Of a stretch of 64,000 nucleotides of DNA, positions 48,228 to 50,793 are shown one piece after another (position 1 is the stretch's first letter; every line of letters begins with the position of its first letter). The notes under the pieces were generated by a model. It worked only from the letters and a program-made list of their open reading frames with translations. It ran no database searches and was not told where the DNA came from. The DNA lies in NCBI GenBank assembly GCA_029256325.1, contig JAQSYD010000001.1:41888-105887 (forward strand), in the 5' to 3' direction. The position numbers were made by a program, and so were the translations under genes. The stretch is from Clostridia bacterium (GTDB lineage Bacteria; Bacillota; Clostridia; Lutisporales; Lutisporaceae).

Positions 48228-49784
48228 ATGAGTATTTTAAACGTTAAGAATTTAAGCCACGGCTTTGGAGATCGTGCAATTTTCAACGATGTATCCTTCC
48301 GTCTACTTAAAGGCGAGCATATAGGCTTAGTTGGCGCCAATGGTGAAGGAAAGTCCACTTTTATGAATATAGTTACAGGTAAACTGGAGCCAGATGCAGG
48401 TGTTGTTGAATGGTCTAAACGTGTAAGAGCCGGTTATCTTGACCAACATACTGTCCTGGAAAAAGGTATCAGTATTAGAGACGTATTAAGAGGTGCTTTT
48501 CAATATCTGTTTGATTTGGAAGCAGAAATGAATCAGATGTTTGAAAAAATGGCTGAAGCAACTCCAGAAGAATTAGATCAGCTTATGGAGGATTCCGGCA
48601 CAATTCAAGATATATTAACACACAATGATTTCTATGTTATTGATTCAAAGGTGGAAGAAACGGCTAGAGGTCTTGGTTTAGTGGATATTGGCTTAGATAA
48701 AGATGTAAATGATCTAAGCGGAGGTCAAAGAACAAAAGTTCTATTAGCTAAGCTTCTTCTTGAAAAACCGGATATATTACTATTGGACGAACCTACAAAT
48801 TATCTGGATGAACAGCATATTGAGTGGTTGAAGAGATATCTAAATGAGTATGAAAATGCTTTTATCCTCATATCTCACGATATACCTTTCTTGAACAGCG
48901 TTATCAACCTAATTTATCATATGGAAAATCAAGAGTTAAATCGATATGTAGGTGACTATGACAATTTCCTTCAAATTTATGAAGTTAAGAAGCAGCAGCT
49001 TGAATCCGCTTATAAAAGACAGCAGCAGGAAATAGCAGAGTTAGAAGACTTTGTTGCCAGAAATAAAGCAAGAGTTTCTACTAGAAATATGGCAATGTCT
49101 AGACAGAAGAAGCTGGACAAGATCGAAGTAATTGAATTAGCAAAGGATAAGCCAAAGCCGGAGTTTAAGTTTAAAGAAGCACGCGCTGCAGGCAAGGTTA
49201 TATTTGAAACTACCGATTTAGTCATCGGCTATGATGAGCCTCTTTCGAAGCCCCTAAACCTTCAAATGGAAAGAGGACAAAAAATTGCTTTGGTAGGTGC
49301 CAATGGTTTAGGTAAGACTACGCTATTAAGAAGTATTTTAGGCGAAATAAAGTCTGTCTCAGGAGAAGCAAGACTAGGTGATTACTTATCAATCGGTTAT
49401 TTTGAGCAGGAAATTAAAGAGAATAACTATAATACCTGCATCGAGGAATTTTGGAAAAGCTTCCCGTCCTTTAGCCAATATGAAGTCAGAGCAGCATTAG
49501 CAAAGTGTGGTCTAACTACTAAGCATATTGAAAGCAAAGTTATGGTGCTTAGCGGCGGTGAGCAAGCTAAAGTAAGACTGGCTAAGCTTATAAATAGAGA
49601 AACCAATTTACTGGTACTGGATGAGCCGACAAACCATTTGGATGTAGATGCAAAAGAAGAACTAAAGCGAGCACTTAGGGATTATAAGGGCAGTATATTA
49701 CTTATATCTCACGAACCTGAGTTTTATAGAGATGTTGTATCTAAAATATGGAATTGTGAAGAATGGACAACAAAGATCGTTTAA
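48228..49784 (+). CDS. ABC-F family ATP-binding protein (YkpA/YbiT-like)
   Basis: Two ABC domains: GANGEGKST/LSGGQRTKVLLAKLLLEKPDILLLDEPTNYLD and GANGLGKTT/LSGGEQAKVRLAKL...DEPTNHLD. Confidence 0.92.
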   Translation: MSILNVKNLSHGFGDRAIFNDVSFRLLKGEHIGLVGANGEGKSTFMNIVTGKLEPDAGVVEWSKRVRAGYLDQHTVLEKGISIRDVLRGAFQYLFDLEAEMNQMFEKMAEATPEELDQLMEDSGTIQDILTHNDFYVIDSKVEETARGLGLVDIGLDKDVNDLSGGQRTKVLLAKLLLEKPDILLLDEPTNYLDEQHIEWLKRYLNEYENAFILISHDIPFLNSVINLIYHMENQELNRYVGDYDNFLQIYEVKKQQLESAYKRQQQEIAELEDFVARNKARVSTRNMAMSRQKKLDKIEVIELAKDKPKPEFKFKEARAAGKVIFETTDLVIGYDEPLSKPLNLQMERGQKIALVGANGLGKTTLLRSILGEIKSVSGEARLGDYLSIGYFEQEIKENNYNTCIEEFWKSFPSFSQYEVRAALAKCGLTTKHIESKVMVLSGGEQAKVRLAKLINRETNLLVLDEPTNHLDVDAKEELKRALRDYKGSILLISHEPEFYRDVVSKIWNCEEWTTKIV

Positions 49785-49787
49785 CGA

Positions 49788-49826
49788 GTAAAAAAGGCCT
49801 AAACTATGCGTTTAGGCCTTTTTTTT
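49788..49826 (+). terminator. Bidirectional Rho-independent terminator
   Basis: aaaaaaggcctaaactatgcgtttaggccttttttt; serves abc-F (+) and the DUF1858-like gene (-). Confidence 0.85.
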
Positions 49827-50024
49827 GTCATGAATGCTTTCATTTAATTCATATAAAACTTTTTCAAGATCTAGTTTTTTTAATTCAACAGCCTGTTGAA
49901 TAGTATTCCTGCACCTTCCACCTCAACCGCATCCAATACTAGCTAAACCATAGTGTGCAATGACCTTTTTGGTTTTGGGGTATCTTACCAGTAGGTCTTT
50001 AATCCTCATATCAGGACTAATCAT
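49812..50024 (-). CDS. Candidate selenoprotein: DUF1858-like small redox protein with in-frame TGA (Sec)
   Basis: Minus translation MISPDMRIKDLLVRYPKTKKVIAHYGLASIGCG[TGA]GGRCRNTIQQAVELKKLDLEKVLYELNESIHDKKKA; family-like similarity continues on both sides of the TGA (49923-49925). Confidence 0.7.
49883..49901 (-). promoter_or_regulatory. Candidate bacterial SECIS hairpin
   Basis: AUUCAACA-GGC-UGUUGAAU, 8-bp perfect stem, apical loop beginning with G, loop starts 30 nt after the UGA. Confidence 0.6.
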
Positions 50025-50034
50025 AATAATCCGT

Positions 50035-50793
50035 TTAAATAGTATTATATGGAGTTATAGCGACATCAAGCTGAGCTGGGTTGAAGGATGGCAAGTTTTC
50101 AAACTCAAATCTCTCACAGAAGCTTTCTTCTATCGGAAGAATTTCTTCTACTTCACAGTATCCAAGTACTGGTACACAAACTTGAACTTCTGCATCAAAT
50201 TTTATTGCAATAAATACACCGATATTAGTCACGAGCAATTCACAGTCAGTTTCATTGTTCAGTTCATCAATAACTGCTTCGCTGAAGCACTGTAGCTCAA
50301 ATCTACCCTCGTCTAAGAAATGAAGCAAATTATTGAAGTTTTCTGTTGTTGCATCTGGATATTCTCTTCTAACATTAAATCTGAAGCACAATTCACCGTC
50401 TTCACCAATTGAAAGATTTGTGTTGCAGTCTGGTATATCTACAACTCTCATTCTAATTATATGACCTTTTTCATCTTTACCGAATACATCGCAGCAGCAT
50501 CTGCCGCTGAACTTTAGCATTTTCATGGTATTTGAAGAAACATCTTTAATCTCTACATCACTAATTTTGCAATGCTTCAGTATGAGTGTTGGTTGTATGC
50601 TTCCGCCTCTAGGAACATTGTCTAACTCAAACTTAACACCCTCAACGCAATCTCTTAATGCAAATTCATCAAATACCTTCTTTACCTTTAGGCACTCAAG
50701 AATTAGATCTCTTTGACATGGTCCTGTTTCTGTCTGAACAGTTACACTTATTGAACCAGCGCATGGTATGGTTGGTAATGGCATATATCTCAC
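50035..50793 (-). CDS. Hypothetical protein, possible spore coat/surface protein (duplicated Cys-containing domains)
   Basis: PCQRDLILECLKVKKVFDEFALRDCVEGVKFEL...; CGSGRCCCDVFGKD-like region; 11 nt upstream of the candidate selenoprotein ORF. Confidence 0.5.
   Translation of the reverse strand: MRYMPLPTIPCAGSISVTVQTETGPCQRDLILECLKVKKVFDEFALRDCVEGVKFELDNVPRGGSIQPTLILKHCKISDVEIKDVSSNTMKMLKFSGRCCCDVFGKDEKGHIIRMRVVDIPDCNTNLSIGEDGELCFRFNVRREYPDATTENFNNLLHFLDEGRFELQCFSEAVIDELNNETDCELLVTNIGVFIAIKFDAEVQVCVPVLGYCEVEEILPIEESFCERFEFENLPSFNPAQLDVAITPYNTI

Follow-up and report, generated by a model that had tools for sequence, protein, structure and literature searches.

Evidence for a Cys-Gly-Sec subfamily of DUF1858-type selenoproteins with a covarying SECIS-like hairpin

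Sec-containing DUF1858 proteins have already been tabulated, with the motif CxxU (for example WP_012065717.1; PMC9312934, PMC13188914). For the bacterial SECIS element, the bSECIS model gives a loop of 3-9 nt, a stem of 4-16 bp and a G at loop position 1 or 2, at 16-37 nt from the UGA and with a free energy of at most -7.5 kcal/mol (PMC13188914). Here we describe a gene in the window (the whole 64,000-nucleotide stretch of DNA that was analysed) whose product has the same domain as the published CxxU selenoproteins (PF08984) and whose Sec most likely takes the position of the second CxxC cysteine. In contrast to the published form, it has two extra residues before the Sec and its Cys is at -2 rather than -3, and all 18 orthologs are of this CGU type. 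The preliminary description could not say whether Sec-containing members had been described; they have, as CxxU, but the CGU form is absent from the selenoprotein tables of both papers (PMC9312934, PMC13188914). A full-text search of open-licence papers found none naming a Cys-Gly-Sec selenoprotein motif and none pairing a redox disulfide domain with a selenoprotein. What is new is a distinct CxU subfamily, with another active-site spacing, in a known selenoprotein family.

The reading frame and its domain

The gene is on the minus strand at 49812-50024, with the ATG at 50024-50022, an in-frame TGA at 49925-49923 and a TAA at 49814-49812. Its 70 codons are translated as MISPDMRIKDLLVRYPKTKKVIAHYGLASIGCGUGGRCRNTIQQAVELKKLDLEKVLYELNESIHDKKKA, where the UGA is read as Sec at residue 34 (U34). 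The frame was assigned by direct reading, the DUF1858 match and the orthologs, and the Sec codon by direct reading and the ortholog alignment. Downstream of the UGA, at 49901-49883 on the same strand, there is a SECIS-like hairpin, ATTCAACA-GGC-TGTTGAAT, with an 8-bp stem within the codons for I-Q-Q-A-V-E and a GGC loop, G being its first base, that begins 29 nt 3' of the UGA. The frame, the coordinates, the TGA position and the hairpin were all found on direct reading as the preliminary description had given them. The motif core TGYGGNTGAGGNGG occurred once in the window and in 0 of 100 shuffles, a count that is illustrative only, since this same site supplied the pattern. At the end of the gene an inverted repeat, AGGCCTAAAC-GCATA-GTTTAGGCCT, followed by a T-run (49795-49819, minus strand, by direct reading), overlaps the stop codon; it is probably a terminator, and it would also face the convergent ABC-F gene on the plus strand (48228-49784).

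With Cys placed at the TGA, the protein matched DUF1858 (Pfam PF08984) at 36.8 bits, above the gathering cut-off of 32.2. A six-frame PF08984 search of the whole genome (G000; 3.57 Mb in 198 contigs, 88% complete) recovered the locus unprompted at 36.4 bits, interrupted by one TGA; it also returned four further DUF1858 members, one of them likewise containing a TGA. Homology to the hybrid cluster protein-associated redox disulfide domain (TIGR03980) was detectable, but the score of 33.2 bits is below the curated cut-off of 44.95, and the CxxC/CxxU spacing is broken in the CGU protein. The ScdA_N score from Pfam, 21.2 bits for a protein of just 70 residues, is also below its cut-off (32.5). An AlphaFold2 model from a 17-row alignment was all-helical with a pLDDT of 82, falling to about 62 around the CGU loop. 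Its best structure matches were 2k5e and 2k53 (TM 0.71-0.73, with Foldseek E values of just 0.02-0.07), two DUF1858-type domains solved by NMR, and the N-terminal domain of YtfE (TM about 0.73). The model thus predicts that the 70-residue protein has the fold of the solved DUF1858 members. The Fe-S repair proteins ScdA/YtfE have an N-terminal domain with a similar fold and a Cys-Gly-Gly site, but the CGU protein has no attached di-iron domain.

Conservation of the UGA, the flanking codons and the hairpin

Orthologs were searched for with the protein as a query against 295 relatives, and extraction gave 18 proteins, from the window and 17 other genomes. Three of the four congeners have an ortholog at 78-80% identity, and orthologs occur across the taxonomic family (38-81% identity in the 17 genomes), each with the TGA. 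CGUGG with an in-frame UGA is present in all 18, and C32, G33, U34, G35, G36, Q44 and N61 are invariant in a 17-row alignment. Therefore, of the CGUGGRC motif first described at this site, the C32-G33-U34-G35-G36 part is invariant, while Cys38 is not conserved across the CGU orthologs. A CGU profile run against 394 genomes of the class found 15 places scoring 81-110 bits, each of which has the TGA and comes from the same family; the next scores dropped to 53 bits, from ordinary DUF1858 members. The only match outside the family at the phylum level (G674, 61.7 bits, in a sample of 400 genomes) was rejected as an ordinary CxxC protein. Thus, among the sampled class and phylum genomes, a single taxonomic family had the CGU form, and no Cys ortholog of it was found in these 394 and 400 genomes. 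Named contigs gave only two matches (L084, L085), which apparently repeat ortholog loci counted above, and a plasmid search gave no match.

The codons on both sides of the UGA were compared by the Nei-Gojobori method, which gives rough figures for such short sequences. Between the window and ortholog L055, dN/dS was 0.09/0.81 upstream and 0.19/1.38 downstream of the UGA; for L056 the values were 0.08/1.08 and 0.26/1.58. These values indicate purifying selection on both sides of the UGA. Synonymous change was lower still in the hairpin codons (0.22 against both L055 and L056), which is expected because RNA and protein both constrain this sequence.

The hairpin begins its loop 29 nt from the UGA in the 18 orthologs, the one exception being L068 (32 nt), which has a one-codon insertion. 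Among 15 distinct sequences, compensatory changes were found in five of nine base pairs, for example C-G/G-C at 8:7 and A-U/G-C at 11:4. Paired cells made up 85.9% of the alignment, compared with 20.7-44.4% when the partner strand was slid. There were 17 double-change cells against 6.7 in shuffles, and the covariation score was 0.402 against 0.196 (0 of 500 shuffles in each case); these shuffle comparisons are inflated by the relatedness of the sequences, which the slide control retains. The mean stem was 7.39 bp, whereas synonymous-codon shuffles averaged 4.23 bp and the highest of 1000 shuffle means was 5.28. At the fixed site the mean stem was 6.94 bp in the CGU group, 4.90 in a group of paralogs with CxxU followed by GG (CxxU-GG), and 0.92 in 38 Cys homologs.

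Similar to the elements of the bSECIS model, the hairpin is directly 3' of the UGA and has a small loop starting with G-G, and its loop (GGC), stem (8 bp), G position and spacing (29 nt) all fit the model (PMC13188914). It differs in that its stem is within the codons of a conserved E/Q-Q-A-A/V and so is under RNA and protein constraint together. The hairpin of the window folded at -5.8 kcal/mol alone, -6.3 in 50 nt and -9.9 in 60 nt, so that the limit of -7.5 was reached at 60 nt only. Its free energy alone is unconvincing; it is the comparison across genomes, and that alone, which convinces. An Rfam scan near the gene found no relevant family. Compensatory support is hard to show for a bacterial SECIS because the element sits inside the reading frame, and the hairpin would be a clean case of one backed by compensatory change while it encodes a conserved peptide.

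The UGA could instead be a true stop, in which case the locus would be a pseudogene, a sequencing error or a gene for a 33-residue peptide, and the hairpin would serve something else. A standard gene caller would end the frame at the UGA, and the fold of the hairpin in a 50-nt window is unexceptional compared with dinucleotide shuffles (z -0.36). However, the same UGA is found in 17 other assemblies, the C-terminal half is conserved with dN below dS, the hairpin covaries and the DUF1858 match spans the UGA, which together make a true stop very unlikely. Pseudogene and sequencing error are refuted by the cross-genome comparison, the latter by the same UGA in 18 separate assemblies. The selenoprotein gene at 49812-50024 is probably unannotated, and genes of the CGU type are likely to be missed or shortened at the UGA in annotation.

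Selenocysteine machinery and other forms of DUF1858

The Sec machinery that the preliminary description proposed to look for is all present in the same genome. The selD, selA and selB genes are side by side at L007, with profile scores of 564 bits for SelA, 394 for SelB and 394.5 for SelD (read through its TGA). The tRNA-Sec gene, on the same contig, was missed by ARAGORN and recovered with a covariance model (49.8 bits; gathering score 47); its anticodon is TCA by sequence. SelA was present in all 22 family genomes examined. With selD-selA-selB and tRNA-Sec in its genome, the organism is therefore equipped to decode UGA as Sec. The selD gene (L007:5053-6096, plus strand) has an in-frame TGA near its start; the product opens with MDKKNTRLTQMTKSSGU (context TKSSGUAAKIG), and SelD is probably a selenoprotein itself.

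If UGA were reassigned genome-wide to Trp or Gly, that residue would take the place of Sec, and UGA stops are indeed rare, ending 3 of the window's 39 long open frames. Yet UGA does terminate some frames and long ORFs have no internal UGA. Moreover, tRNA-Sec with its TCA anticodon, SelA, SelB and SelD are present, and close paralogs have Cys at the site. On the UGA stops, the Sec machinery and the paralog Cys, genome-wide recoding was rejected as extremely improbable.

Because the UGA is conserved, both of its sides are under coding constraint, the hairpin shows compensatory change and the Sec machinery is in the genome, we read 49812-50024 from these sequence comparisons as a functional bacterial selenoprotein gene, with a probability of about 0.95. 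The Sec reading first proposed for this UGA is thus supported. Three findings had been named that would speak against it, namely absence of Sec machinery, homologs with neither Cys nor Sec at the UGA column, and a sequencing error, and none of them was made. At that column all 18 orthologs have UGA, and close DUF1858 paralogs swap UGA and Cys at the second CxxC cysteine.

The DUF1858 proteins with a UGA were of four kinds: CGU, KCFGU (CxxU then GG), GCVGUPS and HCL[S/G]UPG. The last two alternate with Cys forms (L025/L029 and L131/L107). In a tree of 86 domains, which has only 62 columns and weak inner forks, the CxxU-GG group was one clade (99/90), and a supported branch (99/85) set the CGU rows and one long-branch Cys-less row apart from the rest. 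The canonical Sec forms were scattered among Cys forms, requiring five changes. In this family, canonical DUF1858 proteins show repeated exchange of Sec and Cys at the second CxxC cysteine (L029, L036 and L103-L107 versus L025, L031 and L131). Since the +29 hairpin is absent from the canonical Sec forms, their SECIS must lie elsewhere. The CxxU-GG paralogs have a UGA-to-hairpin spacing identical to that of the CGU form.

In both the CGU and the CxxU-GG forms, the UGA is ten codons from the conserved Q. This equal distance makes the second CxxC cysteine the most likely counterpart of the Sec, and the two additional CGU residues would be an insertion upstream of the Sec; a pairwise HMMER alignment instead puts the gap after Cys32. 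Because the CGU form has no known Cys ortholog, the usual Cys/Sec pair test rests on the paralogs. Several DUF1858 paralogs use Sec and some interchange Sec with Cys, and they are suited to testing what Sec contributes to a small redox protein.

Genomic neighbourhood and possible function

A conserved Cys-rich gene (50035-50793, minus strand) precedes the selenoprotein gene. It encodes about 250 residues with ten conserved cysteines and directly adjoins every ortholog whose contig is long enough to span the junction. In the window 10 nt separate the two genes and no Shine-Dalgarno sequence is evident, and therefore the selenoprotein is likely to be translationally coupled to this gene. The upstream protein had no match in Pfam, NCBIfam, PHROGs or PDB sequences; it is predicted to consist largely of beta-strands, and a structure model of it at pLDDT 72 had no credible fold match. 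High-scoring orthologs of it occur in the same taxonomic family only, and there is distant C-terminal similarity to proteins of 200-300 aa elsewhere in the class. G010 and G015 keep the partner and have no selenoprotein exactly at that point, which weakens the idea that the CGU gene and the upstream gene are obligatorily paired. At L172:2244-2330 and L173:790-890 the selenoprotein is gone and both the upstream and downstream genes are retained, which looks like clean loss.

The downstream genes vary. In six ortholog genomes there are a Rrf2-type regulator and a NifS/IscS-type desulfurase, directly downstream in five of them and with one gene intervening in the sixth. From this, and from the distant similarity of the domain to the N-terminal domain of the ScdA/YtfE Fe-S repair proteins, the selenoprotein might act in Fe-S or tRNA thiolation pathways by handling sulfur or selenium, its Cys-Sec pair carrying persulfide from the cysteine desulfurase. 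But other genomes have different genes downstream, ABC-F in the genus of the window and glycosyltransferase or sugar-nucleotide genes elsewhere, and G010 lacks the selenoprotein with the regulator and desulfurase genes still in place. Such a role is thus unlikely.

For the selenoprotein reading, SelB would recognise the hairpin that immediately follows the UGA and deliver Sec-tRNA-Sec. The product would be a helical protein of the DUF1858 type, 70 residues long, whose active site, Cys-Gly-Sec-Gly-Gly, would lie between two helical halves. Cys32 and Sec34 may cycle between thiol/selenolate and selenenylsulfide, and we somewhat favour the view that the protein works as a disulfide reductase or small redox carrier, with a flavoprotein resembling thioredoxin reductase as its probable reductant. 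That its targets include the upstream Cys-rich protein is the most tentative part of this proposal and rather improbable. It is equally doubtful that the CGU proteins form a functional class of their own that uses Sec only, in which the Cys-x-Sec pair would have a redox potential unlike that of CxxC/CxxU and would be dedicated to reducing or cross-linking the upstream Cys-rich protein, possibly a spore or cell-surface component.

The same genome has a second UGA-containing DUF1858 gene (L004:1477-1665, minus strand), of the CxxU type with KCFGUGG and the same GAGCAGGCTGCTC hairpin. The CxxU-GG paralog of 16 family genomes has a SCIFF-type radical SAM maturase on one side and a thioredoxin-reductase-like flavoprotein on the other, and this flavoprotein is the best available hint of an electron donor for such proteins. 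Five other CxxU-GG loci that were examined, four of them from another family, have different neighbours. At L004:1859-2635 (minus strand), the thioredoxin-reductase-like ORF is without the N-terminal FAD-binding part of its relatives, either through an assembly frameshift or through gene decay.
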